64,000 nt of DNA from Glaciozyma antarctica PI12 (taxonomy: Eukaryota; Basidiomycota; Microbotryomycetes; Kriegeriales; Camptobasidiaceae). The notes beneath the pieces were generated by a model that did not search any database, had not been told where the DNA came from, and was given only the letters and a program-made list of their open reading frames with translations. Position numbers and translations under genes: made by a program. Where the stretch lies: NCBI GenBank assembly GCA_002917775.1, contig KZ627152.1, positions 536,641-600,640 on the forward strand, written 5' to 3'. Shown here one piece after another: positions 108 to 44,492 of this stretch (the stretch's first letter is position 1; each line of letters starts with the position of its first letter).

Positions 108-595
108 TTAGCGTCCTACTAGAGAGGAAGCGGAGACGACGGGAGGAGAAGACGCACCACTGAGGAGGTTCGCATTCTGCCCGAGCGGAGGAAGGCCAGA
201 GGTGGGAGACGAGTCCTGGATAACGTATGTCGCCCAAATCCAGCGCTTCTTGTGCTCCACGCCCTCAGGAGGAGGAGTAACGTCGTCCTCTGTCGGCAGG
301 CGTCTCAAGCGAAGGAGACGTTTCGGAGTTGGCGGTTCGAGCTCTTCCGCTGCGACGAGGTCAGCGATTTCTCGCAAGATTGGCGTGAGGACTTACGGCG
401 AGGTTTCTCGATGGGCGCAGCGATCATTTCTGGGACCGAGGCGATGGAGAGAGCGATGGCCGCGCGGTGTGCGGCAACTTGGGTGCGATGCGCGAGGCGG
501 TCGAATAGTCGCTCAAAGGACGACGACTCTGCGAGGGTGTGGGCGTCCAGAAGAGACGAAAGAGCGAGTAGAAGAAGGGCGAGAATGCGGAACAT
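108..595 (-). CDS. Small secreted protein of the RW-motif family, copy 1
   Basis: Two exons (595-397 and 349-108) flank an intron at 396-350 (GTAAGT to CGCAG) in phase 1. The product is about 145 residues. It opens with a hydrophobic signal-peptide-like segment (MFRILALLLLALSSLLDA), then an Arg/Ser-rich stretch, and after the intron a conserved block with LLRLRRLPTEDD and GVEHKKRWIWA. That block matches three other genes in this window (6.3, 17.5 and 19.4 kb), and all four carry the phase-1 intron at the same place. Unlike the others it lacks PDAE after the tryptophans and has a tail of about 30 residues. I recognise no known domain. Secretion is inferred from the leader only. Confidence 0.6.
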
Positions 596-1349
596 CGCGA
601 GACAACGGCGGAGTGTGGACCGGGGGACCTTGAGGGTGGAGAAACGAGCGTGAGGGTGTTGAGAGTGTTTGGAGAGTTGGCGGGGTTCAGCAAAGGACGT
701 GAAGGACAGAGCAGAGAGCAAAGAGAAGGGCAGAGTGCGAGCTGGATCAGGGCAGCTCTCGGCGGACAGGCCGCATTGAGGTTGGTGCCTGGATTTCGAT
801 CTCAACTGGGACGTCGAGACCGGCCGCCTTTGAGATCGCCTCTCGCTGAGCTGCCGAATGCCTGAGTGAGCTTTGAGGATGTCTCAACCCTGTCACGTCG
901 GGGGACGCGGAGGGAGAGCACGGAGGAGCAGCCTGAGGGACGATAATCTGCAGAGGCGAAGGCGATTCAATCGCGGTGCCTGGTTCACGCCGGCTAGGCG
1001 AGAGTTAGCGTGGTATCCAGATGAGCTGCAGGAGCTAGAGAGGAGCTTCCAGTACTGTCGTCGCAATCAAGCGCGTTCGTCGAAAAGCGCGGAAGAGCCG
1101 GCGGCAAGCTGAGGAAGCTGGTCGTATTCGAGGTTGCTAGCACGCTTGACGGGTGTGCCTTACTCTAAAGCTCGAATGTCGCGTGCAGTGGCAGCGTGAG
1201 GTTACAACAGCGAGCGGGGTGAGGGAAGGGGAAGAGGAGTGCGGTCCCCGAACGCGCTCTTCTCCTCCGCCAGTCGCCTGGCCCGAGTCAGCGCACAGTA
1301 AGTTCTCGCGCAAGGGAAGCGGAGGAGGGTTAGCTAACAGGTTTGAGCA
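596..1349. other. Intergenic region between divergent genes
   Basis: This stretch separates the minus-strand small secreted gene from the plus-strand large gene and presumably holds both promoters. Short open frames here (for example 873-1112) are Arg/Ser-rich, lack splice-supported extension and resemble no known family, so I call no gene. Confidence 0.4.
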
Positions 1350-4300
1350 GTGGCAGCACCGGTCGGCGAATCCCTCAGCTCCATCGCCTGCCTCCTCGAC
1401 GTGACGCCTTCGACCTGCTCTCAGTCCGCCCATCTCCTTTCCCTCCTCCACCAACGCACCAACTCGCCTACTCCAGCTCCAGCAGTCTACTCGATCATTC
1501 AGCTCCCGGCGCGAGGACCTTGGCCATCTCGTAGCGGCGTTTGGAGAGGCAGTCGAGGATGAGATAGGAGACGAGGCGGGGAGCAAGTCGAGCGCGCGGT
1601 CAGGCGTGAAGGACCCCCAGAAGCGTTTGCTCAAGGCTTTCGAGACGGCGCTGAACGAGTTTGAGAAGCGCTGGGAGGAGCAGACGCGGGGCGTTTCGAC
1701 AGCTGGGAGCTCCGGACCCCTCCCCTCGCCTCGACCTCCTCACGCGACCCGTATGCCGTCGAGTTCACCGCACCGAGGTCCTGGATCGAACATCTCCGCG
1801 ACACCGAGTCCGAAGCTGCCATCCTCGAATTTGTCGAGCTCCTTCTCGCCGACCCGTGCACTCTCGGCGCCGGGATTGCAACACTCGAAGGCGATGCTCT
1901 CACCTCTCTCCTCCCTCCACACTCCTATACCAACTCCTCTTCGCCCCTTCGATCCCTCTTTCACCTCGTCGCAGCCGCCAAAGGATCCGAGGCTGTCCTG
2001 GAACTCGCGTTGGGAGCTTGGGAGACGGCGATACGGGAGATTGTAGGGAGGGAGAGCTCGCGGAACCAAGCTGAAGATGGTGAGAGTAAAGGGAAAGGGA
2101 AGGCCGGGGGCGGTGCGCGGGAGAAGGAGCTCGAGGAGTTCTTGGTCGGGATGCTGGATCTGCTCGACTCGATGGGATTGGAGGTCGGTGGCGTCGCGAG
2201 TGGGGAGCCAAAGGCGAGTGGAGGAACGGGACCCCTCTCGCTGCATCGAGGAATAGAAGATGTTCACCTCCAGCTCCTTCACGAAGCGCAAGCCCTCCGC
2301 TCGCAAACCCTCTCTTCGTTCCCGACTTCCTCGCCACCTTCCTCAGCGCGCCACGTCCCTTCGGCCTTCAACCCCGCCAACTGGAGCTCCACGATGGCGA
2401 GCACTTTCTCTACGCTATCCTCGTACTCGTCCGCGTCGCTTTCGACCGTCGCAACCCTTTCCAGCAACCTCTCCTCGGCCGCCGGCCTTCCCTTTCCGCT
2501 ATCTTCCCCTCCTTCCCTCCCCTCGTCCTTCACCCGCCCCTCCCCTCCATCAAGCTCCATTCCCTCTAGCCCTTCGCGACTCCTCCACCCTGCGCCCCTC
2601 CACACCCCCCTTTCCTCCCTCCTCACGCGCACCTCGACGACGCTCCTCAAGCTCCTCTCTCCCTCGCCATCCCCTTCAACACCCCTCGCCACGGCCCTTG
2701 TCTCCCGTCTCCTTTCCACCTCTTTCCCCGCATCGAATGCTCTCACTCCTCCCAGCCTCTCGACCCCCTCGGCGCATCACAAAGTCCTCCTCCTCGCCGT
2801 TACGCGTTGGTACGGCTTCGGCTGGCTCGGAGCGAAGCTTGGGAAAGCTGGAACCGGTGGTGGCTGGACGATCACGGCGATTCCATGCGGGGTGAGGATG
2901 TCGCGGAAGGAGGAGGAGAGCGGGAGAGAGAGAGGGAGGAAGGCTGGGACGGCGATGCTCGATGAGGTGTATGTCAACCCGTCGGAGAGGATTGAGGTTC
3001 TCCTCGGGTTGCATCGATGCATTTACGGAGCGATCGTTGGGGCTTGTGGGCTGGGAGCGGCGGTGCGGGACGAGGATCGGGAGGGGAAGGCGTTGAGGAA
3101 AGCGGCGAAGGCTTTCGTCGGAGCCTGGAGTTCGGGAGTTGGGAAGGTCGACAGCAGCGACGGGACGGGGATGAAGTCGTTTCTTCTCGACTCAGGGACG
3201 CTGGTGGATCTCGTCGCGTCGTTCGGTCAGCTCGTCCTTCGTTCGCCCGCCGCAGCTCCGATTCACTCGCCGACTAGCTTCAAGAGGAGCAGCGCGTTCA
3301 GCCCCTCCAAGACGGAGCTCGACAACTCGTCGGCGGCATCGAATTCGGCGAGGAGCGTGGAGGACGGACCGGCGAGCCTAGGAGAGCGCCTGGAGGTTGT
3401 CGTCGGCTTCGCGTCGACGCTCGCGAATCGGGACGCAGCTCTCGTTATCGCTACACCCGCCTCGAACGGCAGGCTTAAGCTCTCCCTCCGGATACCGGAG
3501 AACGAGCTCTCCAACTCTCCCGCCGCGCCTTCTCGTCACCCACCCTCGACAAAACCTCGTCGCAGCTCCCAACCGACTCCACCGCCTCTCCATCGCAATC
3601 GATCCCTCCCCGTACCCCGCAGCTCCAGCGGCTGGATCTCCCCTCCTCGCTCGCCACGGCAAGAAGCTCTCCAATCGTCGATGCAGTCTTCGTCCAGCTA
3701 TTTCGCAACCCGCACTCCCTCGCCCTCGACGATCCGCCTTTCTCCAGACGATGCGATCCCCGAGCTCTCGAGGGCGTCGTCCCTCACTTGGCGAACGAAG
3801 AAGAAGGAGAAGGAGCCGCCCGCCTCACTATCGCCGGCGGAGATGGCGCTCGTCCGGAAGGGAGTCTTTGCGCTTGCGAGGGCCGGGCACCGAGGAATGG
3901 AGGTGCGATCGACGCCGCAGGACGTCTTTGCGGGACCGAAAGGATCGCCTTTGCCGTCGGGGTCGCAGCACGTCCTCGACGCTCTCGCCGTAGCAGCTCG
4001 GCAAGCGGCAGAGGAGCGCGACTACCCCTCCCACGTCCTCTATTCTCAGACCCTCTCCATCCTTCGACATCATCACCAAACCTCAGGCAACCTCGACTCG
4101 ATCCTCACTCGCATCGTGGCGCCACTTCGAGAAGCCAACGTCAAGGCGACTTCGACGCTGCGACTAGCCAAACGACGACTCGCCGAAGTCGACGCTCAAC
4201 GACGAAGTCTTCTCGAGATTGCGCGGAGCGAGCGAGGAGTCATCGACGACCTGCGGATTCGCGCCTGGTACTTGTCCGTCAAGGCGAGCGAGCAAGGTCG

Positions 4301-5913
4301 GCAGCTCCGCTCTCGCCTGGCGGATCTACGAGTCAGGCGGACGAAGGAGGAGACGAACGCAGCGCGGGAGAGCGTCGAGGCGTGGGCGAACGAGCTGGGG
4401 ATATATTCGTTCGCCAAGGCGGGACAGTTCGAGGAGGCGCTCATGCTCGTCGAGACGGGGGTGGCGCTGGCGATGCAGCCCGAGACGTTCTACGCGAACC
4501 CGTTCTGGGCGAGGGAGCAGGCCGTCGTGGCGAGCTTGGTCGCCAGTCGGCATTCGGCAGCGAAGTCTCGCCCGTCGTTCGCGGAGACGCTCCTGGCGTC
4601 GGGATCCTCGATTCTCGCAGCGCCGTTGACGCTTGCGGGACTGCCGTATCCCTCGATGGAGAACGCGACGGCCTCGGGACCCACTCCTCCCGCCAAGGTC
4701 GTCTTTGCGTTCGGCGCTGCCTCGCCGTCGATGCTCAAGCCGCACGAAGCAACGATGGCGTTCGCGGGAGCAGTGGAGGAGTCATCTTCTGCGAGTCGGT
4801 CTCAAGCTGTCGGTACGCCCTCTTCCCAGCACCTCTTCGAACGTCTTGCTGACGCTTTTTTGCAGGGCTACATGTGGTCGGACGTCGCTTCGAGCACGGT
4901 TTCGAGCAGGAACGTCGATGGTCGGCTCCTCGGCTGCGACGCATGGCTCGAAGAATTCGCATCGCCACTCTCGCCTCTCGCGCGACCTTCACCAGGAGAC
5001 GTACGATTCGGACTCGCTACCCTCCCCAAAGCCTTCCTCCCCTCGACGCCTCCTCCTCCCGTCTACTTCGAGAAGATCCTGAGGCGGTTTACAACCCATC
5101 CCTCGCCTCACGCCAAACTCCACGCGCTCCTCGAACTCGAACTCGTCCTTTCAGCCTCGATGAGCGCTCCTCCTTCTGCCCGCTCGATGCCACCCCCGGC
5201 GGCGACGGCGGAAACAGTCAACGCGCCTCGAGCGAGGGGCTACATTGCGAAGCTTTCGGGCCTTCTCTCGAAGCGCCTGAGCCTCGCTCCTTCGCCTATC
5301 GCAATGCTCCTCGAGGGTGACGAGGAGGACGTCGCGGGACTCGACCACGCAAAGGAGCCCTCGATCCTGTCGGCCTCGGATGTGTTTGCCTCTCCTCGCC
5401 GCCGTCGACAGCTTTCCAACGCCTCAGCCTCGACCATCACCGTCGAAGATCTACAACACCCACTCTTCGCCATCTCCCAGCTCGACACCTCCACTCCAGC
5501 GGGATCCTCCGCCAACACCGACGACCTCCTCACCGAGCTCGAGAGTATCCTCCTACACCTCCGTCCCTCCTCCCTCTTCCAGAACCTCCAAACTATCGCC
5601 TCACTCACCCCCTCCGCCATCCTCGACTCCAACTTTCTCGGCAAGGCGTTCTGGGACGTCGGGCTCGCGGCGCTGAGCGTTAAGCGGGATGTCGTCGAGG
5701 GCGAGGCGGGGGTTGTGGAGCGGGCACTGGCGGCGTTGGGAGAGGGGACGGAGGAGGGGAAGGAGTTGGCGGAGAGGTTGTTGGGGATTGGTGAGTGGTT
5801 CCTCCTCTGCTGTGGTGCGGGATGCTGATGCTCGCTTTTGGTTAGCTGCGCGGGAGGAGTCGTCGGTCGCGCTGGGGCTTGTGGGCTCGCTGGGGTCGAG
5901 CCGGAGTTTGTGA
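1350..5913 (+). CDS. Large protein of uncertain function, possibly RasGAP/VPS9-like
   Basis: The main open frame (about 1692-5828) encodes over 1,300 residues and is joined at its 3' end, by an intron at about 5790-5854, to a last exon ending at the TGA at 5911-5913. A plausible start is ATG 1350, with a first intron near 1401-1482. The protein is Ser/Pro-rich in its first half. The middle is helical (around 4000-4560) and the C-terminal part contains HPSPHAKLHALLELE and GKAFWDVGLAAL. The order of blocks recalls fungal proteins with RasGAP-like and VPS9-like regions, but I cannot confirm either domain by eye. The frame changes near 1690 without a good intron, and between about 3490 and 3850 another frame also looks coding, so the N-terminal third is provisional. 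An intron-like segment at 4813-4865 reads through in frame and is treated as coding. Confidence 0.5.
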
Positions 5914-6269
5914 CTAGCGAGGAGCGTAGATGCACTGTAAACTTGGCGCTGCTCGAGGAATGCTCGCTGAATGGGAGAAGACCCGGACGTCCGAGGGAGA
6001 TCGATCGGCGCCCTTTGTCTAGCGGACCTCCGAGTTTTCCTTCTCTCGTCTTTACAAGGGTTCTTTCCCTGTTCATAGCTGGGAATAGGGAATCCAGATT
6101 TTGCAAGGACCGCTTCAGAATCGCATCGAGGGTGGATCCCAGATCCCAATGCCACCTTTCTCCCTCTACCAAGTACTCTCACACACTCCATCCTCAACGA
6201 AAGACCTTCCTCTAGCCTCGCCCGCTCAGTCGTCCCTCTCCACCCGCCTTCAAACCCACTAGCCGCACC
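5914..6269. other. Intergenic region upstream of small secreted gene 2
   Basis: No gene is seen. Pyrimidine-rich sequence just before ATG 6270 is consistent with a promoter and 5' leader. Confidence 0.3.
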
Positions 6270-6679
6270 ATGGTCGCGCGTGCCCCAATCGCCCTCCTCC
6301 TCGCCACACTTCCAACCCTACTCCAGAGCCAACCTCTCCCAGGATTTGATGAGGTCGAAATCTCCTCGAATCCCTCGCTGCTCTCCATCCCCGTCCGTAC
6401 GTCGCGCTCCACTGCATCCTCGCTAGCGAGCTCCACTGATGCGAAGTCGAACTCCCAGCCGATACCAGGGTTGAGGCGCAAGATCGTCTTGCTCTCCAGC
6501 CAGTGATCGCCGAAGAGGGTATCGCTACCTCTCCTGTAGGCGAGGAGAGGGCAGGACGGTGGGTCTGGGGACCTGATGCGGAGCTGGAGGAGGGATTCTT
6601 TCGCGTTTGGGTCGAGAGTGCGTTCTCTTCTCCTCGCTTCTTTGCGGATACTCTGGCTAACGCTGGCAGTGCAGATTGA
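6270..6679 (+). CDS. Small secreted protein of the RW-motif family, copy 2
   Basis: Three exons: 6270-6396, 6459-6617 and 6675-6679. The introns at 6397-6458 (GTACGT to CCCAG) and 6618-6674 (GTGCGT to TGCAG) are canonical. The product is about 96 residues with a signal-peptide-like N-terminus (MVARAPIALLLATLPTLLQS). The first intron is phase 1 and sits where the single intron lies in the other three family members. Downstream lies AGRWVWGPDAELEEG, the family signature, followed by a short extra tail with a second aromatic pair (FFRVW). The second intron leaves only an Asn codon and the stop in the last exon. Function unknown; secretion inferred from the leader. Confidence 0.65.
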
Positions 6680-7012
6680 GCTCTGGAATGAAGGAACGAG
6701 AGGAGAGAAGCTTCTCGAGGTTGACTGAATTGAACCTGTTGTCGCGCGCGTCTCGACGTGTCAAAGGACTTGGAGCTTGATTCTTGCCTGTCCGCCGCCT
6801 CTCTGTTCCTCCCCCATCGCTCGTCCATATCTTGCCGACCAGGCGCAAGAGTTCTCGAGCCAGGCCATACTCCCCCGATCGATCCACGACTCGTCGAGGG
6901 CCTCACGGAGCACGGCCACGGTCCCCGCGCGACTCTTCGAAGGCGGTAGGAAGGTGGGCTCGGGGGCCCTCCAGCAAGAGAACAAGACAGCTAATGCATC
7001 TTACCAGCTCAG

Positions 7013-10000
7013 ATGGACCCCCCCCGCTCCACCCCAGTTGTCAAGAAGGCTCGCACCACCTCCGGCAGCACCCCCTCCGCCCGCTCCCCCTCCCTCCCCG
7101 CCGTTTCTCCTCCCTCCCCGACCTCGCACGCCGATACGCCTCTCAACAGCATCGCGGAAGAGGTGGAGGAAGCGGAGGCGGAGCAGCGCGTGAGCTTCTA
7201 TGTCCAGGCGGCGGACGACATGCTGCTGGCGACGTTGGAGAAGGAGGCGTTCTTGTTCACTCGCGTGGAACAGGCGGCGCTTAGGATTTTTCAGGAAATG
7301 GATTGTACGTGCTTTCTCTCTGCTCAAGCGGATTTCCCGCTGCAAGAGGGGAGCGCTGATGGGGAGCGCAGACGAAGCGAGGTACCTCTTCATGCGCTTG
7401 TACCTCCGCAAGCACGGCTGGATCCGCCTCGTTTCGCTCGGCTACGAGAACGATATCAGTGACCTCGACGCTGCGTGTGAAGCCCTCTACACGACAGTCG
7501 ACCTCTCCTGTCCACCGAAAGCGCGACTCGCAACCCCCGAGGACGCCGATCCGAACGTCGATCCGAACGTCGTTGATTTGACGGGCGACGACGAGGATGA
7601 AGCTGCGGATGAGGATTCTGAGGAGGATGGATTTTGGGAGGATGGCGGAGGGGAGGAGCGTGCTGGAGCAGGGGAAGGCGGAGGAGGTTCTGGGGGTGTT
7701 GAGCAGGGATGAGCTGGAGGTGCTGGGGAAGAAGATGAAGGTAAACGGAGGGAAGGGAACGGTGAGTTCTGCGTTTCTTGCGATGCAGGAGGGGGATTTG
7801 ACGAGCCGGATGATTGGTAGAGACGCGAGTGGACGACAGCTCTCCTCAAGACGGCTTCGCAGGCGACTCTCGGCTTCTTTGCAAGGCCCAAAGGAAAGGA
7901 GACCTCCACCACCAAGATGGTCGGAGTTTCCTACGACGCGAAAGGGAACAAGCTCAAACAATCCTCCCTCGTCGTCAGCGCCGCTCTCAAGACCATCGGT
8001 CCGTCCCTCCCCCTCCTCCTCTCCCCCGCTAACACCCCGCGCAGGCTCCTGCATCCGTATCCACCCCTCCTACGTCTCCCTCTTCAACCGCCTCTCCCTC
8101 GTCTACCACCGCACAGCCTACACCTCTTCCACGGGCATCACCTCTCTAACCGCCTCGCTCCTCTCTCGCTTCGGGAAACGCCATTACCCCTCCTACGTCG
8201 TTCGTCGATCCTTCTCCATCTTCCCATCTCGTGCCATCCTGCGGAAATTCGAGGAAGCGCTGGCGGTAGAGCAGAGGATGGAGGAATTGCTCGAGGGGTC
8301 GAATGGAGCGAAGAGTGCTGCTGGGGCTGCGGTGGTGAAGAGGGAGAGGGAGGAGGGGTGGGCGGAGGGGATTAGGTTGTTTGAGGAGAAGGTGAAGGGG
8401 GTTTGGGAGAGGATGTGTGAGGAGGGAGAGAAGGAGTTGAGGAAAGAGATGAAGGTCGTCGAAGAGAAGCAGTTGCTGTATTATCGCAAGAGGTTCCATC
8501 CTGGTGAGCTCTGTTTCGCCTCCTCCCTCGCGCACGGAACTGATGAAGAGCAGGAATGGCCTCTCACTCGAGCAGTCTACAAAGCAGCAGTCATCTACGC
8601 TCGCCTCGTCCGTCCATTCCTCCTCCCTCATTCCTCGCTAACCCAAGTCGCAGGGCCGCCACTCCTCGGAACTCCCCCTCCTCCGCTCCCTCCTAGCACA
8701 GAATTCCTTCCGCCGCGGCAAGCGAGGAGATTGGTACGACCGCCTCGCGCTCGTCTTGATGAAGTACCCGAGTGCGGAGGAGGAGGCCGAGAGTACTACG
8801 GCGGGGAAGGCGGCGCGGTTAGCGAAGAAGCGGAAGGAGGAGGCTTTGGAGGTCTGTTTGCGCGGGTTGGAGGATCCGGTTACGCATCTCAGTACGTGCG
8901 TTCTCTAGAGAGAGCGAGGAAGGGGAGCTGATGAGGAACAGTTTACAAGTCGTCTCTTCAACGACGGGTTTCGAGAATCGAGTCGGCGCTCGAGGTGCCC
9001 AAGGCTCAGCGACATATTTTTGAGCGCGTGTTGGCCAAGTCGGAGTCTCGCATCGAGGAGGGAGAGAGGTTGGACGATGCGATCGTGGGGAAGAAGAGCG
9101 TTTGGAAGGGGGAGGAGGGGGAGGTTAGTGTTGAGGAGTTGGCGTTGGAGAGGTATGCGGCGGAGGGGTGGAAAGGGTGAGTCCGTTTCGAGGGAGCTGA
9201 GGAGGGAAGCTAATGTGCGGGAGAGCAGGTTCCATTCCGAGAACAGCATCCTCACGACTGTCGTGCGTCGCGTCGTTCTCGCCATCAGCCTCATCGCTAA
9301 CTCCCGCACAGTTCTCGCTCGTCTTTTGGGATATCCTCTTCACGCCCATCGACGGAGTTTTCGAGACTGCGTACCAGTCCGCGCCATTGGATCTCCGCAC
9401 CGACGCTTTCTGCATCGGTCAGTCCCGCCGTTCCTCGCACGCAATCTCGTCGCTGACCTCGCTCTCCCGCAGTCCGACGCTCGCTCATTAAAGCTCGAAT
9501 CGCTGCGGTCGAGAAGGGGAAAGCCAAGTCCCTCCTTTCGAAAGTCGACGATCGCGAGCGAGCGAAGAACACGTTCTGCGTCGGCGTCAATTGGGAGAAG
9601 TACTCGAAGGAGGACCTGCTGGAGATCGTCGAGGTGAGTTCGTCCTTTGCTGCCCAAGGAGTGAGGCTGATTAAGCTGGTCGCGCAGTGTATCGGTCCAG
9701 CTGCGCTCGCTCCGATCCTCTCCATCTTTGCCGAGGAGTACGGCCACCGCACGGGCGGTATTCCCGACCTCTGGTTCGTCTCTCCCCCTCCTCCTCAATC
9801 CCATCTAAACCCTCATCACAGCCTCTGGAACCCCGACGAGGACACCTGCAAGTTCGTCGAAGTCAAAGGCCCTGGCGACTCGCTCTCCGAGACGCAGAAA
9901 GTTTGGATCGACGTCCTTCTCACCGCTGGAGTCGGGGTCGAGGTGTGTAGGGTCGTTACGCCGGAGGAGAGGGAGGAGATGAGGGAGAAGGAGAGGGAGA

Positions 10001-10359
10001 GGAAGGAGAAGGCGGGGAAGAGGGGGAAGAAGCGGGCGAGGACCGAGGAGGAGGAAGAGAAAGAGCATGAGCTTTTGAGGTTTGGCTGTTGGCTTCGTCG
10101 CCGTCGTCGTTTCGTTGTTGTTGTGCAAGATGGTTTGCTCAGATCTGGCTTGAAGTTCGAAGGCGGGGGCGCGTCGAAACTGCTCGTGACCTCGACTCGA
10201 CTGTTTTTGGGTGACGTCGCCTCGCTTCCCGTCGACTTAGACTTTGACACGGCTTCCTTTCTTCCTCCGACCACTACTCTGCTCCCTACAGACCTCAACA
10301 TCAACATCACCTACATACCACCAGTACGTCGTCACTCACACCCGCGTCCGCCTCACTAA
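7013..10359 (+). CDS. FAN1: FAN1 structure-specific nuclease (Fanconi-associated nuclease 1 homologue)
   Basis: FAN1 family members cut branched DNA during interstrand crosslink repair in the nucleus. Exon 1 (7013-7304) gives a Ser/Pro-rich start then YVQAADDMLLATLEKEAFLF; an intron at 7305-7371 follows. Later exons carry RKHGWIRLVSLGYE, the helical FAN1 core (SLFNRLSLVYHR, SFRRGKRGDWYDRLAL, then SILTTVFSLVFWDILF), and the C-terminal VRR-NUC nuclease: Glu in FAEEYGHRTGGIPDL and EVKGPGDSLSETQ, the PD-(D/E)XK residues. About ten short introns are needed. Near 7570-7672 an acidic stretch either is an intron or involves a frame change. The C-terminus after about 10080 is unclear, because the open frame runs to 10359 into the leader of the next gene. 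Confidence 0.9.
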
Positions 10360-10798
10360 CGCCTTGCAGTGCCTTCCCTCACCTCCTCCATCAGCTCGTT
10401 CATCCAGTCCATCTTCCAGATCTTCGAGGGCATGTACGTGCGCCCCCTCATGCGCCAGAGCCCCACTAACACCGACGACGCGCAGCCTCCAGTCGTTCCT
10501 AGCCGTCTTCGAATCCATCTTTGCCGTCTTCCAGGCCATCCTCTCCCAGCTCCTCAACCTCGTCGAAAGCGTCTTCCGTTTTGCCATCGGTACGTCCTCC
10601 TCTCCAGCGCAAAAAAACGAGGAACTGACGCCACATGATAGATAACATCGTCCTCCTCGGCGTCGCAGCGGGTTGTCGTCTCCGTTCTCGCGCAGGGAAC
10701 GCCACTGACGCGTTTCTTGATTCGCAGCGGTGCTAGTGGCGTACTCTATGTACACACAGAGCCAAGGCAGGGCTGGAGGGCTCAAGAAGCGAGCTTGA
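10323..10798 (+). CDS. Tiny hydrophobic helical protein with intron-split start codon
   Basis: The start codon is assembled by splicing: A at 10323, intron 10324-10369 (GTACGT, CTAAC, TTGCAG), then TG at 10370-10371. Three more introns (two start GTACGT; the third starts GTTGTC and has CTGAC) join in-frame exons to TGA at 10796-10798. The product is about 89 residues. Residues ~8-60 form a periodic aromatic/hydrophobic helix (IFQIFEGI, FLAVFESIFAVFQAIL, LLNLVESVFRFAI), followed by a likely transmembrane segment (NIVLLGVAAAVLVAYSMY) and a basic tail (GGLKKRA). No family is recognised. A membrane or organellar location is inferred from hydrophobicity. No in-frame ATG exists elsewhere before the C-terminal Met, which supports the split start. 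Confidence 0.6.
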
Positions 10799-10944
10799 GC
10801 ACGCTCATTTCCTGTAAATGAATCGTTCCCACGGTGCCTCTCCCACTGCTCTCCCACTGCTCTCCACTGCTCGTAAGAAGAACGGTATTACACCACCTCA
10901 TCCTTCCTCCCCCTCCTACTCCACCGCATACATACTCCACCGCA

Positions 10945-12868
10945 CTACGGATTCTCCCTCTTCCCCCCCACCTTCCCCTTTCCCTTCTCCAGTCCCACCC
11001 CCACGCTCCCCGTGAACGCTCCCACCCCCTCATGAAAGGCGAACTCGCCTCCGACGACACGTTGGAGCGTCTGGTACGCAGCGATATTCGCGAAAGGGGT
11101 GAGAGTGAGGGGGTCTCGATAGGGTGCTGGGAGGCCGGTGAGAGGGCATAGCGGGACCTTCCGATCTGCGCTTATGAAATCAGTGAGGGATGAATGGAGT
11201 GGGAGAAGAACGTACGGAGGACGCGAGAGCGGGAGGGAACGACTTTGACGGAACCCCAGACGTGGTGAGAGCCGAAGAGGGCTGTCATTTCGGAGGAACG
11301 ACGGGGTTCGATGTCGGAGAGGATGAGGTAGGTTCGAGAATGAGGTTCGAGAGGGTCGGGGTCGGTTGGGGGTTGTGGAGGGAGGGAGGTGGATGCGAGG
11401 GAGGAGGCTGGGAGAGAGGAGGGAGGGAGGGATGCGAGAGTCGTCAGAGGAGGGGAGGAGGGATGAGGAGTGGAGAGAGCGGAGGTGGAAGCGAGTGGCG
11501 GTGTAGGAGTTTGTGGATTGAGGAGGTCTGCGAAGCCCGGATTCGAGCGCCCCGCCAGCGCGTCCACCTTCATCCCCGACCCGCTCGCCGATGCTCCCTG
11601 CTCCCCCATGCCCGAATTCGGTCTCCACCCCTCCTTCCCCGCCTCCCCAATAACCTCGATCAACCTCCTCCTCCCGCTCTCCATCCTCTGCTCCTCAGTC
11701 CTCTCCTTCCCCTTCCCCTTATCGACACTCTCTCCCTCCTTCCCCCACTCCCTCCCTCCGCCCTCCATCCTACTGATCCACGTCACGCGAGGCCCGATGA
11801 TCTCGTATCGCATTCCGGCGACGCGTTCGGCGGCTCGACGATCTTCCTCGGCGGCGTAGAAGGCGAGGAGGGAGGCGCGGTTGATCTCTTCGGTTTGAAG
11901 AGCTTCGTCGATCAGGTCGGCTTGAGTGAGGGATACAGTCGTCTTCTTGGCGACTTTGGGTAGCGAAGCCTGCGTTCGATCATCAGCTGCTGCCTCAGCG
12001 AGACGTAGCCGAGGGGGGAGAGGAGGGACGCACCTCTGCTCGCTCTCCACCAACCTCCCCTCCACAGTCTTCTTAAACGCAACCGCACTCTTCCTCGAAC
12101 TCTCCCTCTGCACCCCAAACACAGGCACCTTCTCCCTCTTCCGCTTCTCCGTCCCCTCCGCTTTCGTCTGCCGCGCGAACGTAGGCAAGAACGGAGTGTG
12201 CGTAGTCCGCTTCTTCTTGTTTCGCGCGTCCCGACGAGAGAGGTGAGCTTCTCGCTCGAAAGTACGTTCACCGGCTTCGGCGTCGGAGGCTTCGCCGCCT
12301 GAGTCGGTGGAACCGAAATCGGAGTCGAAGACGTCAGCTTCGTCTGTTGGGAGTGAGGGAGGTTAGCTGGGTTCGAAAGCTGAGGTCATGAGCTGGGGCC
12401 GTTGAGCAGTCTGGGAGGTGGTGGGGAGCGACGCTGAGCTGTTCGTGCTTGCACTGGAGCTCGTCGCCGTTGCTCGCCTCGAGCAGGAGCACGCGCCTCA
12501 GGAGCTGCTCACAGCCCTACCGTCCTGTCAGGACTACGCCACGCGCAGTAAATGCCCCTCCCCACAGCTTCCCAGACCGTAACACTCCCTCCGCCCCTCT
12601 CCGGCACACACGCGACCGAACCACCCCAGCGCGTACCTTTCGTCTCAAACTCATCATCCCCCTCGTCCTCCTTGAACATCTCCTCTTCCTCCACCTGCTC
12701 CTCATCCAACAACGCGCGCATCCTATTGCCCGCATTCGAGCGCTTCTCACGCCCGGCGAGGAGGGGGATGATCGGCTCGCCGTCTGACTCTTCTTCGGAT
12801 GACGAGGCGTCGGAGGGGAGCTCGGCGGGAGGAGAGGGAGCTGGTGGTGGGGAGCGTGGGGCGTTCAT
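10945..12868 (-). CDS. VPS72: VPS72/YL1, SWR1-compl. subunit
   Basis: YL1/Vps72 is the SWR1 chromatin-remodelling subunit that binds H2A.Z-H2B in the nucleus. Exon 1 (from ATG 12868) contains the YL1 signature KRSNAGNRMRALL followed by an acidic run (EEEEMFKEDEGDDEFETK), the histone-binding part. A relatively long first intron (about 300 nt) leads to a second acidic/basic exon, then an intron starting GTGCGTCC interrupts the stretch after VESEQR. The last exon, after an intron with donor GTACGT, carries the YL1 C-terminal domain: PLCPLTGLPAPYRDPLT and FANIAAYQTLQ. The middle region is Ser/Pro-rich low complexity. Stop at 10945. Confidence 0.88.
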
Positions 12869-13030
12869 CGCGGCGTACGGGGAGGGTGACGACGAGGAGG
12901 GGTCGGCAGGGGAAGGAGAGGACAGAAAACGGCTGGAGCGTTGGCCTCAGCATTGGAAACAAGTTGCAAGAGGCTGTTGCTCTCCTCCGCCCGCGCTCCC
13001 CTCTGCTCGCAATGGACCTCACGCACTCTA

Positions 13031-13690
13031 ATGATTTCCAAAGCGTCTACCTCGCGGCTCGGGGCTCTCCTCCAACATCTCCGTTCTCTCACTCGTACCG
13101 AACGAGCCTGCCCAGCGGCTCAGGGTGACCCACACGACCCCAATTGGTGCGTCCTCCTCTTGTCGCACCCACTCCCACCACTTACCGTTCCTCCTCCCAG
13201 TGCTGATCAGTCCATTCGACCACTCTTGTGTTGCGGGGCGGTGACTCACGACCCCACCGCATCGACTTCAGAGCTCCGCGCTCAGCTCATCTAGTGGAAT
13301 CTCGCGTACCCGGAACCGTTCTACTTTACGCGCTATATGCTCTTGATGCCTCAACGACCCAAGTCCCCTTGGAAGCTTGTGGAGTTTGCAGGAGGCCCTG
13401 ACGATGGTGAGGTGATTGAGGCTAACCTCGCGGAGTGCAGGTGGCTTCATCACCCCGATCTACAAGGTTTTTTCACCGTGTGAAGTACACCTTTGTGAGT
13501 AACCTCTCTCTCTTGCTGTTCCTGCATTGCAATTCTCACGTCACTCCACTTCACAGAAAGACGAGCCACAATCCGAACGACAATGTGCAGTTCTTCGCTT
13601 CGGAGAAGTTGACGCCCGCCGAAGCTCGCGGGATGTTTGGGACGGAAGAGTAGAAGGAGAAGCGAGACTACTGGGCCGAGGCGCCGAGGT
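13031..13690 (+). pseudogene. Decayed gene of unknown family
   Basis: Three exon-like pieces with plausible introns (about 13146-13200, 13398-13440 and 13496-13557) share protein-like reading, including WNLAYPEPFYFTRYML, PQRPKSPWKLVEFAGG, GFITPIYKVFSPCE and ASEKLTPAEARGMFGTEE. Two in-frame stops interrupt it: TAG at about 13292-13294, just before the WNLAY block, and TAG at 13651-13653, after GTEE, beyond which KEKRDYWAEAP still reads like protein. I do not recognise the family. An alternative is a shorter functional gene beginning after the first stop, but no suitable ATG is seen. Confidence 0.4.
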
Positions 13691-13699
13691 GCGTTGATC

Positions 13700-14131
13700 T
13701 CGCTCCTTTTTCATGGACGGCCAGTTGTTCCTGCAGCTTCAGCTGCAACAAAGCTTGTACATATATCCTCATCCTCTGCTCCGATTGTTCCGTAGCCGCT
13801 ACCGTCTTGCCTCTGCTCCAAAGCTACTCAGACCGACAGATCTCGCGCCCGTCCCCCTGGCGAGCCGAGAAAGGTTTTTCGTGTTGGTGAATTTCGCAAG
13901 ATCCTCGGATCTCGCTCGCCCTCGGCTCTCAATTTTCATTTCTTTATCAAACTTGTCAAGTAAAGACCCGCCTTTTCCTCAGCGCTGAGGAGCAGAGAAA
14001 GAAAAGTTAAAGCCTTTCGAAAAGGAGGACGTCGTCATCTCTCAGCGCGCCGAATTCGCCGACGCTCTCCTAGCTCCCCCCAAGTCCTTTGACCCCGAGC
14101 GAACGCTCCTCTCCTCCTCCCAACTTCAAGA
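13700..14131. other. Intergenic region upstream of oxidoreductase
   Basis: No gene is supported. The segment holds CAGCTTCAGCTGCAAC-type sequence and ends in a pyrimidine-rich tract before ATG 14132, consistent with promoter and 5' leader. Confidence 0.3.
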
Positions 14132-16395
14132 ATGTCGTCCCCTCCAGTCGCCGGCCGCCGCCGCTCCTCCGTACGCAGGCCCAGCATCGCCCTGGGAGCC
14201 CTGCACGGCATGGTCATGTCCCAAGCTCCCAAGCCAGGAGGACAGTTCGTAAGCTCCTCCCTCGCCCGTGCACCCGTGCATAGTCACCGCACTGACGAGC
14301 GCGCGCGCAGAACATCCTGTACATTGGAGCTGGCAACATCAACTTTGTGAGTCTCGCCGACGGGGGGGACTCCTTGACAAGCGCGCGGCGGCCTTTCATC
14401 GATCTGGGGTAGCGGGGTGGACAGTCGGGGTGAACTGGGGAAGCAGAAGATGGAAGTGGCAAGTAGGATAAAGCTTATCTGGCCGGGGAGGAGTGCCTTG
14501 GACGGCGGGGGCGAAGGGAGGAGCGCTGGCCTGGGGGGACGCCCAGCGTCTGGTGGGGCTCCTCTCTCGGCTGCGACCATGCTTTCTCGTGCCCCGAGCA
14601 GCTCACAGTACAGCAGGACAGTCGCTGACGGCTTCTCTTTCCTCGCGCGCTTGCAGGGTGGCGACCAGGGTTCGCTATCCCCTCCTCCCCCTCTCTCATC
14701 TCACTAACCTCCCCTCCTCAGGCCCCTGGGACCACTCCTTCCGTCTCGAGCACAAGGTGCGTTCACGCTCTCTTCCCCCACTCCCAGCTAACGCCCTCCC
14801 GCAGCTCGGCCCCCGCCTCAAAGTCGTCGCCATCATCGACCCGAACCGCGCGACGGCCGAAGCAGTCCTCACCCGCAAGCGCGCTTCGTTCGTCGTCTCC
14901 GCCTACGCCGATACCCGCATCTGCCCCTCGCTCGAGGATTTCGTCCTCACGATGCAGGGCCACGAGAGGCCTCATGCGATTATTGTTGGAAGCCCGCCCG
15001 CGTTCAGGGGAACGGTCAAGCAGGGGAGGGATGTAGAGCTGCAGATTCTCAAGGCTTTCCCCGTCAAGACGCCTGCTGTAAGTTTCGTTTCGTTCTTTTG
15101 GCAATGGTCGAGGAGTTGGCGAGGTGATGTTGAGCAGGAGCTGATGCGCGCCCGCTTCTCGCAGATCTTTATCGAGAAGCCCATCAGTACCGACACGACC
15201 GAGAACGCTCTCACCGTCGGTCGCGCGTTGTACGACAGCAAGACGGTCGTTTCAGTCGGCTACTTCCTTCGCTACCTCAAGGGTCCGTTCGCTCCTGTAA
15301 ATCTCGCCGGTAAAGCTGACGACTCGCTACAGTCGTGCAGAAGATGCGCTCCATCATCGAGGACAACGACTTGCACGTCATGGCGACCGTCGCGCGCTAC
15401 GTCTGCTCGTACGTCCTCTCTCTGCGCCGTCCCTCTCGCCTCTCGCTCACCGAGTACACACGCAGGTACGCCAAGATTGACAAGCCCGCCTGGTGGATGA
15501 AGTCTCGCGACTGTGGGCCCATCATCGAGCAGGCGACGCACTTCGTCGACCTCTCGCGCTACTTTGGCGGCGACGTCGATCTCAGTTCAGTCCAGGCTCA
15601 CGCGCTCGGTGAGTTCCCTCGTTCGAATCTGAGAGAACGCGAGCTGACGAGAAACGCAGAATGGTACGAAGAGGCTGGAGAGCTCTCGGTCATCCCGGTG
15701 GACGAGGACGCCATCCCCGAGGACGACAGGATCCCCCGCGTCACCAGCGCGACTTGGTTCGTCCTTTCCTCCTCCCTCTCAACACGCTCTAACGCTTGGC
15801 ACGACGCAGGAAGTACGAGACGGGAGCTATCGGATCTCTCACGCACGCTCTCATCCTCCAGGGAACCAAGTACTCGACCGAGCTAGAGGTCTACGCGGAC
15901 GGGTATCAACTCCGCCTTATCGATCCCTACAACAACCCTACTCTCCGCGTTCGGTACGTTCCCCCCCCTCTTCCCTTCTTACCCCATACTAACCCCTCAC
16001 AGCCACCCGGAGAACGACGATGAGGAAGTCCACATCTTCGCCAACGACGTTCGTCCCTCCCTCTCCCTCTCCCTCCCTCACCTTCCGACCCCGCTCCTTA
16101 TCGATCCCAACCACTCACGCACACTCGCAGGATCCCTACTTCGGCGAGATCGCAGCCTTCATCGACGCTGCCGACCCGGGGACCACTTCCGCCGTCGCCG
16201 ACGACGACGAGCTCGAAATCCTATCTACGTTCGACGATTCGGTCAAGACGTTTGCTCTGTACGTTTGCTTTCTCATTTCGAGGTTGAGGAGGGGGCTGAT
16301 GCGAGGGCTTTTGAAGGACGTGGGCGATTAGGGAGGCGAGTGAGCAGAGTCGGAAGATGGGGAGGAGGGCCAAGTTGGATAAGGAGGGGAAGTAG
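14132..16395 (+). CDS. GFO/IDH/MocA-family NAD(P)-dependent oxidoreductase
   Basis: The spliced product has an N-terminal Rossmann fold: ILYIGAGNINFGG is the glycine-rich nucleotide loop, followed by LKVVAIIDPNRATAEAVL. IFIEKPIS matches the EKP motif of GFO/IDH/MocA dehydrogenases, which oxidise or reduce sugar or related substrates with NAD(P). Later blocks include VGYFLRYLK and QATHFVDLSRYFGGDV. At least nine introns interrupt it. One exon is only 13 nt (14657-14669), encoding part of FGGDQG; without it GPWDHSFRLEHK cannot be joined in frame. The intron before it (14347-14656) is long for this window. The substrate cannot be told from sequence. It ends at TAG 16393-16395 after a basic tail. 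Confidence 0.8.
14657..14669 (+). other. 13-nt microexon of the oxidoreductase gene
   Basis: GGTGGCGACCAGG lies between a TTGCAG acceptor and a GTTCGC donor. Joining it restores phase between NINF (ends at 14346) and GPWDHS (starts after 14720), giving NFGGDQGPWDH. Confidence 0.65.
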
Positions 16396-17351
16396 ATGGG
16401 GAAATCGAAAGAGTGACTTGTGTGTGTTTGTTTCGCTGTGGTGAAGAGCGAGCGATGGTGTGGACGAGAGAGGCGGTGCGCATACGGAGGAAGCGCGAGC
16501 AAGTGGATTCGCGAGTTCGCGAGAGGGATTTGGAGCTTTACTTTGTTCTCAGCTGCGCTAGGACTGGCCTACCAGCTCAAGAAGCGGCGTCAGGAGGTCG
16601 AGGGTAGCGGTTGCGAAGGAGGTTCGCTCTGTTCTCGCTCGCTCCTCGCTCTCTCCTGACTTGCGTCCCCTGCCGTTCCGGTCGGAGATTCTCTACAGTG
16701 CTTTCCTTGTACTAACTCACGAAAAAGCCGCCCTCTCTCTCCCAGCGAACCCCCCTCCCGTCCCGCAATCTGCGTCCTGCTGTTTAGCGTTCCAAACCAT
16801 CACCCCCCCTGGTACCGTCCGTTTGGCTCCAGGAAGCGGGTACCGGACTACCGATTCATCGTAACCCGTACTTCGACAGATCAGGGCAGATGAGCTTCGT
16901 CACGCGTTGCGAGATTTAGCGTTTAGAGGGGATGACGAGGAGGCCGAGGAGTGAGTTTGCGTCTTTTTTTCTTTCTTTCATTTGATCCCTGATCGGGAGG
17001 TGTGGAGGCACTGGAGGGGGAGAAGGGGGGAGAGCTCCGCGAGCGAGTGGGGAGGTAGGAAAGGAGAAGAAAGAGGGGAGGAAAGATATCCGAAAACGAG
17101 ACGCGGGGCGAGGAATGTGGTGATGGCGACAGGCCGCTGGATTACGATGCAATTGTGGTGTATAGACAGATGGTACGGAGGTATAGAGGTGGCACAGATG
17201 AAAGACGTAGTGAGGGAAGGGAGGAGGAGGACCAGCTCGTCCAGCGAGCCCCCGCAGGACTCTTTTCCGAACTGAAAACGAGGAGCTCGTTAGTAACCGC
17301 ACCCAGCGACGAGGGAGGAAGGAACGCACGAATCGAGAGCGGTGAAAGCAC
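16396..17351. other. Intergenic region
   Basis: 3' flanks of two convergent genes. A frame around 16420-16610 reads SFTLFSAALGLAYQLKKRRQ, which resembles a membrane helix with basic tail, but no ATG or splice context supports a gene. The rest is purine-rich with no recognisable feature. Confidence 0.3.
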
Positions 17352-17674
17352 TCAGATCGCCTCGGCATCAGGCGCCCACACCCATCGTTGACGCTTCTCT
17401 ACCCCCTCAGCAGGCGCGACGACATCGTCCTCCGTCTGCAGCCTCTTCAGCCTCAGGTGCTGTTTTTGAGCAAGCGTGGGTGCGTCGGCTAAGGGGGAAC
17501 GAGAAACGCGTTAGCGAGGGGTCAACGGGCGTAGGGACGAAAGTGAGGTTACCGAGGACGAGGACGGGAGTCCAGTCGGGGTTGGAGAGGGAGGGAGAGG
17601 GGAGGACGGGTAGGGCGGAGAGGAGGACGGGTAGGGCGAGAAGTAGGGAGAGCGAGAGCGAGGGAGATGAGCAT
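17352..17674 (-). CDS. Small secreted protein of the RW-motif family, copy 3
   Basis: Exon 1 (17674-17553) and exon 2 (17488-17352) flank an intron at 17552-17489 (GTAACC to CTTAG), phase 1 as in the other copies. Exon 2 is the clearest family example: DAPTLAQKQHLRLKRLQTED, then GVEKRQRWVWAPDAEAI and the stop. Exon 1 ends SNPDWTPVLVL, matching NPWTPVLAF in copy 4. The ATG (MLISLALAL) and the rest of the leader are one base out of phase at a CTCCCTA tract; reading one C fewer gives a perfect signal peptide. It is therefore either a sequence indel or a recently broken copy. KR just before the RWVW motif could be a Kex2-type site (inference). Confidence 0.55.
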
Positions 17675-17972
17675 CGTGCGGTCGTGGTTTCGAGCGAGCG
17701 AGTCTGGGGGATGCTGAGTGCTGAGGTGCTGGGGTGGATGCTGGGTGCGGTGGTGGTGGTGGTGCGAGCGGCGAGGATGGAGGAAGGAAAGGGAAGACGT
17801 GCGTTTGTCGATACGAAGGCATGGGGGGCGGGAATAAACCGCGCGCCATTCCTCTCAATAGAGTGTTTAATCAAGGGGGAAAGATCGACACTCGGTTCAA
17901 GTGGGTCTTTTCGTTCCAGCCTTCTCTCCTCGAGCAGCGAGGGCAAGATGGCTCGCTGTTGCCCATCCAGGA

Positions 17973-17986
17973 GGGGGGGGGGGGGG
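17973..17986. repeat. Poly-G run of 14
   Basis: Uninterrupted G tract seen directly. Length may be unreliable in sequencing. Confidence 0.9.
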
Positions 17987-18813
17987 AGGCAGTCAGTGGG
18001 GTTTCCTCCCCTGCTCCCTTGTCTTCCGTGGGAGGGAGGAGAGGCGCGCGGGGGGCCAAAGCGGGCGATCGAACTTCAGACGAGATCCGAGGACTTGGCA
18101 AAAATCAACTCGATCGAGTTTCGCCCCTCCTCCTTCCTCCTCCCCCCTCCTCGATCCTTCAATCTGCCCGTAACTGCTCTGTTGACGCAGGTTGACGCGC
18201 TCGCTCTCATCACTACCACGCAGCGAACGAGCTCAAAGCGAAACTTTCAACTTGGCCTGGGATCACCCCCCGAGAGAGGTGCTGCAGCTCTTTTTTTCGC
18301 GTGAGTGTCTCGTCGAGAGGGGTTGAGACCAACGCTACTCTTCTTTCAAGGAGATCGTGGGTCTCACCTCCACAGACGACCCACCTCAGCCTGCGTGCCC
18401 TGTGCCATTCTCGCCACTCTCGCCACCGCCGCCTTCCTCAGCGTCCTCCGCATGCTCACGTCGGATTGACTGACGGAGCCATCAGCACGCTCGACTGCTG
18501 AGCAGATGGAGGAGTGGGGCGACGACCCTGGTGCTGAGTGCAGGCTGGATTCGCTGGAGTGCGGCTCAAAGCAAGGTATTTTCTCTTTTCGCCAGGGCAT
18601 TCGCGAGGTGTGCTGTTGAGTAGTGAAGCGATGGCACACGGGCGCTCGATCGAACGAAGCAGATGTTGTCAGGAGCCTGCTTGCGAAGGCGCGGGGACTA
18701 TCGCGAGGACCTCTGGCTGGCCATTCTCTCGCTCGGCAGCCTCGCTCCACCCCGACATTGACCTTGAGATTTCTCAGTCACTCTTTCTCTCATGGACCTT
18801 TGGTTTCGCTTTT

Positions 18814-18834
18814 CAGCAGCAGCAGCAGCAGCAG
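18814..18834. repeat. (CAG)7 microsatellite
   Basis: Seven CAG units in a row outside any supported coding region. Confidence 0.9.
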
Positions 18835-19347
18835 TTCCCACCCAGCCTGCTCAATCAACTTCCCGCCGAACCCTCCTCTCCCTCATCCTCTCCCGTTTTC
18901 CATCTCGGTTTCGCTCTCGATGCAATACATACAATGTAGCCACATCGAGGGTTCAGCTAGAGGGAAAAAAGGAGATGGATAAGAAAGGCTAAAGTGGCAC
19001 GGCGCCGTCATCGACCCGCCGGGCTCCGGATCTCGTCCATTTTCTATCGCTTTTGGCGCGCGTTCTTCGGTCTTTCCAGTCCGCTTTCGAGTGAGTAGCG
19101 AGTAGGAGTAGAGACTGCGGGTGCAGAGGCAACTCCTTGTCTCGAAGGGAGACGGAGATTGAAGATTTCCCCGCCAAAGTTTGGCCTTAAGGTTATCTCT
19201 CTCCCGTGCTCCCCGTAGCTCTCCCGTCCCAGGGCGCCTACTCTCCCAGTCAGCTCGCATCCACTCCTTCCCTCTTCCCTCCTCTCTCCCACCCGCACCA
19301 CTCCACCCGCGTCCTCTCCACCACCCCCTGCACAACCACCGCAAGCG

Positions 19348-19698
19348 ATGCTCACCACCACCCCTCTCGCGCTCCTCCTCCTCCTCCTCCCAGCGCTGTC
19401 GCTGGCCCTCCCCGTCGTCCTACCCCCCAACACGGTGAACGACGTCGACAACCCCTGGACTCCCGTCCTTGCTTTCGGTACGTCCCCCTTGCCTCCCCTC
19501 CTCGCTCCCCTCTCCTCGTCGCGCTGTTGTGTTCGTGATATCGAGCTAACGTCGTCTTTTTTTTCAGTGGACGCCCCTGCTCAGCCACAAACGCACCTTC
19601 GTCTACAGAAGATGGAGGAGGAGGACCCAGTCGCTGTGGTACAGGGGGTGGAGAAGGAGCATAGGTGGATTTGGGCTCCTGATGCCGAGGTCGTTTAA
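19348..19698 (+). CDS. Small secreted protein of the RW-motif family, copy 4
   Basis: Exon 1 (19348-19479) encodes a strong signal peptide (MLTTTPLALLLLLLPALSLA) and NPWTPVLAF. A phase-1 intron (19480-19567, GTACGT to TTTCAG with a long T tract) precedes exon 2, which encodes VDAPAQPQTHLRLQKMEEED, then GVEKEHRWIWAPDAEVV and the stop at 19698. The intron also happens to be open in frame, so an unspliced product is possible but would lack similarity to the other copies. The mature protein would be about 65 residues, acidic, with no cysteines. Copies 3 and 4 are each other's closest relatives here and lie head to head 1.7 kb apart. Confidence 0.7.
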   Translation: MLTTTPLALLLLLLPALSLALPVVLPPNTVNDVDNPWTPVLAFGTSPLPPLLAPLSSSRCCVRDIELTSSFFSVDAPAQPQTHLRLQKMEEEDPVAVVQGVEKEHRWIWAPDAEVV

Positions 19699-33422: not shown

Positions 33423-36062
33423 CTACTTCCAGATAGGGAACCATGCCGAGTCCCACCTCGTCTCCGCCGTCCCTCCAACGTCCCCATTCTTGATCCTCGC
33501 CGCGAAGAAGTTCTGATTCGCAAACGACGTTCGTCTGAACGCCGCAATCCACTGGAGTCAAGCTTTATCAGTACTGGTGCGCGTGATAAGAGCGAAGAGA
33601 ACGCACCCGAAGCTGATGCTCTGGCTGCACGAAGCTCCCGCGAGCTTGGAGAGGGATCGCAGCGAACGAAGTGAACGCAGTCACAGCGTCCTGGTACGCC
33701 AGCACCGCATCCTTCGCGACTATCACAGGCTTATAGAAAGCGTCAGCAAGTTCACCGAAGGAGAGAACGAACCGACTCACCTCCTCCGCTGCCGACCGCG
33801 CCATCTCCCCTTCGAACGCCTCCCAGCTCGCCAGCTCCTCTCCACCCGCGACCCCCGAAAGGAACTTGAACCTTCTCTCAAACCTCGTTTTATCCATCGC
33901 TTCCTCCTCCTCAAACCCCAGTATCGGCGACTTGATCCTCGGCACCGTCGCAGGCTGAACCACCGCACTCAGCACCTCACTCAGTACCAGTACTCCACCG
34001 ACAAGAAAAGGACGCACCAGCATCGCGCCCCTGCACATCGCTCTCACCCCCTTCGTTTCAAACGCTTTTGCTCGCACGTACTCCCCGCCCGCATTCAGCT
34101 CCCCCAAGCACATCTCCAAGCGACCTGCGACGCGCTCAGAGACCCACCACACTCGCGTCCATTCTTCTGGGTCGTAGAGGGAGAGCTCGAAGCCTGATAG
34201 AAGGGCGTCGAGGAGCTGGGAGAGAAAAAGGGAGTGGAGGGCGGTGGAGAGGTGGGAGAGGGAGGGAGTGTCGGGTACAAGAGAGTCGATGACAGTGACC
34301 AGCTCGCGTGCCTGTCAAGCATATCAGCCACGTCCAGAAAAGAGAAAGGGAGAACGCACCTCGTCGATAAGCTGCTCCATCATCCCCCGCGTCTTTACAA
34401 TCATCCGTCGTCCCCTCGCACGGTTCTGGCACCCAATCCCAAGGACCTGCACCAGCGTCCCAGCGACGCGATCTGCCCATCCAAGGACTTTGCGCGCAGG
34501 AGCGTCCCAAGTTGTCTCGTGTTCCCGGATCTCGGCGAGCGAGTCCCAGAGCGAGGGGGGTACGCCGGCGAGAGTGGCGAAGAAGGAGGAGGGGAGGGCG
34601 AGGGCGGGGAAGGTCGCGAAGAGGGTGCGGGAGGTGAAAATGATGCTCTGTCAAACGCTTTGTTAGCTGAGTTCGAGTACGGAGAAAGGAGAGCGTACTT
34701 GGTGGATTGAGCGAACGTAAGGATTTGGCTGCCGGCGAGAAAGCGAGACGTAGTACTCCTGCACCAATAGATATCAGCTCCGTCCACTCTCCATCCGGCA
34801 AACAGCCTCACCCGAACTCCAGCCCAACCCATCCTTCCTCTCCACCCCTCCCAAACCGCCGCAGCACTCTCCAGCCCCTTCACCATCTCCGCCAACCCAC
34901 TCCACGCTTCTCCCAGCGTGACGGGCTCGATCTCCCTGACTGGCTGATTCGTCGGTAATGGAGGCCCTGTGCTGGGTGCGAAGATTGCTTTGAGGGCGGG
35001 GGAGGCCGAGAGAGGTAGTGCGGTGGAGAGGGAGGGGATCCAAGCGAGGACGCGCGAGTAGTGTGCGGAGAGGGTGGCGGGGTCGGTGTGAGTTGGAGAG
35101 GTTAATAGTGCGAGAGCATAAGTTAGGTCCTGTTCAGTTTCGTTAGCGCGTTCGGATTGTAGAGCGGAAAGGACGAACGAGTCGGAGAGAGATGCGTCCG
35201 ACGAGAGCTTCGCGCACTGGGCCAACGGGGACGTGCGATTGGACGTATACCATTGCGGCCTCGAGCGCCAGTAGAACGTCGTCGACTGGTACGAGGCGCT
35301 CTTCGGTTGGTTCGGAGGGCTGGACGCGGAGAGGAGAGGGAGGCGGGAACTGAAGAAGAGCGGAGGCGAGAGAGGGTACTGAAGTTGAGCGAGGCGAGAG
35401 AGAGGTGGACGTCCTCGTGCTGTGATTATAGCGATGAGTTGAGGGTTTCATTATGGCCAGCAGCGTACGCACCTCGTACACCAATCCCTTGCAGAGCTTG
35501 CAGACAGACAATCTCGGCGCACTTGAGTACGCCCAGAAGCATCGCCCGCAGGACGACATTCCGGAATCCAGGTAATCGTAGGGGGTCCACTGAAGTCGTG
35601 CTGGCATTCGACACCTGAGCGAGAGCTGCTGTACGGAGATAGAGGCAGGTGTAGAGGGTCGAGACGAGGGGGTGGCCGTCGAGAAAGGTTACCTGTTCGC
35701 GCCTGTTTAGCTTCCCACGCAGCTCTCCGTAACAGCGCGACTAACCTCCAACCGCAGCAGCTCATCCAGCACCCAGACCAGCTCAGTTGGAAGCAGTTCC
35801 ATCGTCGGGTCGAACTCGGGGAGTCCACCACGATCCCTCGCTTTAGCGGCCAGGTACGAGTCGGTTCGTGCGTCCATTATCTGCCCCAGCAGTATTAGAT
35901 CCGTTCCCTATCGCAGGGTACAGCTAGCGAGCGCACCTCGACTGCTCCCATGAGCTCCATCAGACCGAGATCCGTTTTGATGAGTTCGCCAGGCCCCAGG
36001 TCAGCCATCGCGGCGTTCAGCAGCGGAAGGGCGTCCACATAGACGGCGTCGGGGTTGTCCAT
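33423..36062 (-). CDS. NAA35: NAA35/MAK10, auxiliary subunit of NatC acetyltransferase
   Basis: NAA35 anchors the NatC N-terminal acetyltransferase complex on ribosomes. The N-terminus matches the family: GELIKTDLGLMELMGAVE, IMDARTDSYL, then LLPTELVWVLDELLRLE and LVSTLYTCLYLR. Downstream blocks include LPGFRNVVLRAMLLGVLKC. The C-terminal part ends WIAAFRRTSFANQNFF and a TAG at 33423-33425. Around ten short introns are present, many with GTGCGT donors on the minus strand. The start (ATG 36062) lies 79 bp from the start of the divergent inositol polyphosphate kinase gene. Confidence 0.85.

Positions 36063-41833: not shown

Positions 41834-44492
<2,659 letters not shown>

Follow-up and report, generated by a model that had tools for sequence, protein, structure and literature searches.

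Four scattered genes of common descent, predicted to encode small secreted proteins with a C-terminal RW[IV]W motif

The question raised by this locus, a stretch of 64,000 nucleotides analysed at its full length and called the window here, is whether four short genes scattered over both strands form a single family and, if they do, which part of their products does the work. Copy 1 (positions 108-595, minus strand) has its first exon at 595-397 and its second at 349-108, separated by a 47 nt phase-1 intron at 396-350 (GTAAGT..CAG), and encodes 146 aa; its RWIW codons, placed by a DNA pattern match, lie at 234-245, and RWIW is followed by ATYV, without PDAE, as the start of 41 further residues. 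Copy 2 (6270-6679, plus strand) encodes 96 aa (GEERAGRWVWGPDAELEEGFFRVWVEN) in exons at 6270-6396, 6459-6617 and 6675-6679, with a 62 nt phase-1 intron at 6397-6458 and a probable second phase-1 intron at 6618-6674, which sits just 5' of the stop codon. DNA pattern matches place its RWVWGPDAE codons at 6557-6583, and 12 residues follow PDAE. Copy 3 (17352-17674, minus strand) is frame-broken, with exon 1 at 17674-17553, a 64 nt intron at 17552-17489 and exon 2, containing GVEKRQRWVWAPDAEAI, at 17488-17352; its RWVWAPDAE codons match at 17361-17387. Copy 4 (19348-19698, plus strand) encodes 86 aa (GVEKEHRWIWAPDAEVV) in exons at 19348-19477 and 19568-19698 around a 90 nt phase-1 intron at 19478-19567, with RWIWAPDAE codons matched at 19663-19689.

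What the copies have in common is a hydrophobic leader, the position of one GT-AG intron, which corresponds from copy to copy, and a block ending in G[VE]Exx(x)RW[IV]W. An initial annotation had proposed four homologous genes at these coordinates, and both the gene models and the profiles described below uphold it. It had also given each gene one phase-1 intron at the equivalent place: the place holds for every copy and the phase for copies 1, 2 and 4, but copy 3 has phase 1 only in the frame shared with the other copies, and copy 2 has its probable second intron. Its GVE...RW[IV]W signature is right as to RW[IV]W in all four genes, but copy 2 reads GEE rather than GVE. The remaining descriptions, [AG]PDAE in three of the four copies (copy 1 being the one without it) and proteins free of cysteine, were correct; no Cys occurs in any of the four readings, copy 3 being read from downstream of its ATG.

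Kinship beyond a short motif was examined with leave-one-out profiles of the exon-2 blocks. A profile built from any three copies recovered the fourth in every case from among the 1800 stop-to-stop ORFs of at least 15 aa in the window, with E-values of 6.3e-12, 2.1e-6, 1.2e-18 and 3.1e-13 for copies 1 to 4, the blocks having been delimited manually once the members had been identified. In the same runs, the best unrelated ORF reached E 0.26, 0.8, 0.39 and 1.7, respectively. Because of this profile homology, the four scattered genes can be said, on the resemblance of their sequences, to derive from one ancestor, as had been claimed. At the DNA level, a pattern for [R/S]W[IVM]W found six matches in the window versus 0.37 expected in shuffles, the family accounting for four of the six, and a longer pattern running through PDAE (at most 3 mismatches) found three versus 0.19 expected. 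A profile from all four copies, run on the same 1800 ORFs, returned no fifth member in the window, the next best ORF scoring E 0.8. The other two matches to the short pattern, RW[IV]W codons at 42370 and 49286 on the minus strand, were rejected as members at E 1 and 2.9 with the four-copy profile; their ORFs score at chance level, yet are among the better unrelated matches.

Copy 3 departs from the common plan. Its ATG at 17674 is one base out of frame with the shared exon-2 block; a reading from this ATG places the intron in phase 2 and gives a product of 67 aa that lacks RWVW. The leader translated from this ATG looks right over nine residues and then departs from the shared frame, and the shared frame itself can be read through the intron, with no Met back to a stop codon 135 codons upstream. 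When the DNA of copies 3 and 4 is aligned, the ATGs and the ends of exon 1 are in register, with gaps of 1 base and 9 bases. Since the ATG is out of frame, the joining of leader and block in one frame, annotated for each gene, fails in one copy of four; it stands for copies 1, 2 and 4. An upstream exon was sought within 400 bases, allowing introns of 40-150 nt, and the six joins obtained, from two ATGs, all used the donor GTATCG and none had a branch-like motif near the acceptor, making this solution unconvincing. The break may be a real lesion or an assembly error, and copy 3 is in any event a warning for gene models.

The broken copy raises the possibility that the four genes are functionless remnants of an earlier family, now in decay. 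That PDAE was lost from copy 1, or was never there, would suit such decay, as would the divergence of the exon-2 blocks, the block of copy 3 sharing 34-54% identity with those of the other copies. In contrast, three of the four copies retain open frames and usable splice sites, the break in copy 3 may lie in the assembly, and the codon pattern of the aligned block points to protein-level constraint, past or present. Third-position differences outnumber second-position differences in all six pairs of copies and first-position differences in five; in copies 1 and 4, the exception, 17 differences at the first position stand against 16 at the third. Of 31 residues, 19 are identical between copies 1 and 3, with different codons at 10 of these 19, and the Arg before the first Trp is written with a different codon in each of the four copies (CGC, CGG, CGA and AGG). 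With only about 30 codons per pair, and given the exception of copies 1 and 4, this is modest evidence that the C-terminal block carries a signal at the protein level. We consider the relic explanation highly improbable.

The retention of the intron in all copies argues for duplication at the DNA level rather than by retroposition. The four gene regions were compared by blastn, with overlapping regions for copies 3 and 4 and with only 107 bases available in the window 3' of copy 1. No long duplicated flanks appeared, just three distinct matches, all short, from which we infer that the duplications were probably not recent. Between copies 3 and 4, exon 2 matched over 48 nt and exon 1 over 91 nt (E 0.003).

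Does the family belong to any described one? No copy matched Pfam-A or NCBIfam (E limit 5, with filters that drop most matches above about 0.1), and the only match among PDB sequences was at chance level (E 1.7), in agreement with the earlier statement that no described family carries this signature. Pattern searches gave 4 matches in viral contigs and 52 in prokaryotic genome contigs, none confirmed as relatives, and one longer DNA pattern run on each of the two sets gave none; these collections are not fungal, so that such results carry little weight. No paper was found for the family's motif strings in the literature searched, and a broader search returned no paper on the motif among the matches listed, judged by title and the start of the abstract. 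Two classes with familiar signatures were tried and rejected. Basidiomycete lipopeptide mating pheromone precursors carry a C-terminal CAAX box; the present proteins end in VGR, VEN, EAI and EVV, without a CAAX box or any Cys. Hydrophobins and CFEM proteins are Cys-rich small secreted proteins with conserved cysteines, and the four readings have neither a cysteine nor a Pfam match to place them there. The four genes are probably an orphan small secreted protein family, a kind common in fungi; most fungal small secreted proteins are reported to be orphans (PMC7105643). Among the small secreted proteins of Microbotryum lychnidis-dioicae, 46 of 71 lacked relatives in the databases searched, and some formed multigene families (PMC4469406). 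Compared by description, these Microbotryomycetes orphans are likewise small and leader-bearing, but the families described there are Cys-rich and some are in tandem, whereas the present family is Cys-free and dispersed.

The case for export comes from the N-terminus. On the Kyte-Doolittle scale, the best 11-residue value within the first 30 residues was 2.66 for copy 1, 2.19 for copy 2, 2.75 for copy 3 (shared frame) and 2.95 for copy 4, values reached by 3, 10, 1 and 1, respectively, of 300 ATG ORFs in the window, a background that consists mostly of non-genes and may include the family's own ORFs. By this measure copies 1 and 4 have strongly hydrophobic leaders, as does copy 3 when read in the shared frame, and the leader of copy 2 is less hydrophobic. 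After residue 25 the best 19-residue values were 1.42, 0.57, 0.56 and 0.26 for copies 1 to 4, so that only copy 1 has a second hydrophobic stretch, and a moderate one. The four genes therefore probably encode small exported proteins, as predicted from N-terminal hydrophobicity alone. The same very hydrophobic leaders would serve a single-pass membrane microprotein, anchored by its uncleaved leader and with a tail that functions in the lumen of the secretory pathway or at the cell surface. Signal-peptide cleavage typically occurs in a context of small residues; judged by eye, copies 1 and 2 have no clear context of this kind, but copy 4 has small residues after its hydrophobic run that suit cleavage. 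We regard an anchored protein as quite improbable.

Our preferred explanation, held with moderate confidence, is that the genes encode small secreted pro-proteins, probably fungal, which spread by DNA-level duplication and whose working part is the C-terminal tail after the invariant Arg. The leader would direct export, the divergent, proline- and acid-rich middle would serve as a pro-region or linker without fixed structure, and the tail, which starts right after that Arg (in three copies as W[IV]W[AG]PDAE...), would function extracellularly as a linear motif. The odds that this exported tail does the work, whether or not it is cut, are about even, and it is the most likely reading because the block alignment has nine invariant columns, five of which make up the G.E...RW.W stretch, and because all four copies keep the Arg that immediately precedes the Trp. 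Against it, the conserved G[VE]E and LxL lie upstream of the supposed cut, and copies 3 and 4 share a patch in exon 1 (NP.W/TPVL), so that conserved positions extend beyond the tail. Copy 1, with its 41-residue extension and no PDAE, copy 2, with its 12 residues after PDAE, and the frame-broken copy 3 also fit it poorly.

These same features bear on a rival reading, in which the secreted protein works whole and uncut, at the wall, at the cell surface or on another organism, with LxL-G[VE]E-RWxW as one binding segment and no separate role for the tail. Conservation upstream of the Arg, the two copies that run well beyond the motif and the lack of a conserved dibasic site before the tail all favour this, as does the reported prevalence of orphans among fungal small secreted proteins (PMC7105643). 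Nevertheless, the proteins have no Cys for stability, and the block is not predicted to fold, although that test is weak: with an alignment only four sequences deep, AlphaFold2 reached no confident fold for the 44 residues of the copy 3 block (pLDDT 59.9, pTM 0.15). A peptide would be expected to give such a result, but so would almost any four-sequence query. We see the uncut protein as a possible explanation that falls clearly short of an even chance.

Returning to the tail as the working part, it may perhaps be released as a peptide, and we think it possible, if doubtful, that it is actually cut free. The copies do not share a canonical Kex2 site: KR stands immediately before the Trp in copy 1 alone and two residues further up in copy 3, and dibasic pairs are absent from copies 2 and 4. 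Kex2 release of the tail is accordingly poorly supported by the sequences, and a protease other than Kex2 could act. The criteria used in the search for Kex2-processed repeat proteins (KEPs) were a signal peptide, three or more internal repeats and KEX2 sites between the repeats (PMC6339444). KEPs resemble the products proposed here as fungal pre-pro-proteins with a leader, in the present copies a hydrophobic N-terminus on the Kyte-Doolittle scale, and with short peptides beside basic residues. In contrast, each protein here has one RW[IV]W motif rather than at least three repeats, and so no repeats to hold KEX2 sites, dibasic pairs being confined to copies 1 and 3. Secreted peptides of the Qsp1 kind mature extracellularly and are imported by an oligopeptide transporter. 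As an analogy in mechanism only, Qsp1 of the basidiomycete Cryptococcus neoformans is a pro-peptide whose maturation by the serine protease Pqp1 takes place outside the cell (PMC7537855), a route that would need no conserved dibasic sites. The boldest version of the proposal, which we think unlikely, is that the copies are paralogous secreted peptide signals, one per precursor, freed after the single conserved Arg by a non-Kex2 protease and diversified in the tail (WIWAPDAEVV, WVWAPDAEAI, WVWGPDAELEEGFFRVWVEN and WIWATYV...), and thus a new class of yeast peptide ligands. If the genes are peptide precursors, they would provide a family of secreted signals open to experiment, since the candidate peptides are short and easy to make; otherwise they add one more orphan family to the small secreted proteins common in fungi.

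The surroundings were examined for hints of function. A fungal origin is probable from the short introns, the GC content of 60% and the neighbouring genes. Pfam searches of 30 selected stop-to-stop ORFs left 22 without a match, and none of the matches hints at what the family does. Those above curated cut-offs were VRR-NUC (ORF at 9457-10359, plus strand), YL1 and YL1_C (two ORFs within 10945-12362, minus strand), Gfo/Idh (14472-15500, plus strand), inositol polyphosphate kinase (36043-36765, plus strand) and Per1 (38183-39031, plus strand); glycosyltransferase and calcipressin matches fell below theirs. Outside copies 2 and 3, blastn aligned 5708-5766 (plus) with 19328-19263 (minus) over 67 columns at 72% (E 8e-4), perhaps through base composition alone. 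Between copies 1 and 2 lies an open frame of 1387 aa (1665-5828, plus strand) with no Pfam match at E 0.001. From 48764 downwards on the minus strand, a leader-bearing ORF (MAQRQPHSFSPLSLLALSLLAF...) precedes stretches that contain Cys and resemble one another (CGC...ACPS...C), spread over more than one frame, possibly an intron-containing gene for a secreted protein with Cys-rich repeats.
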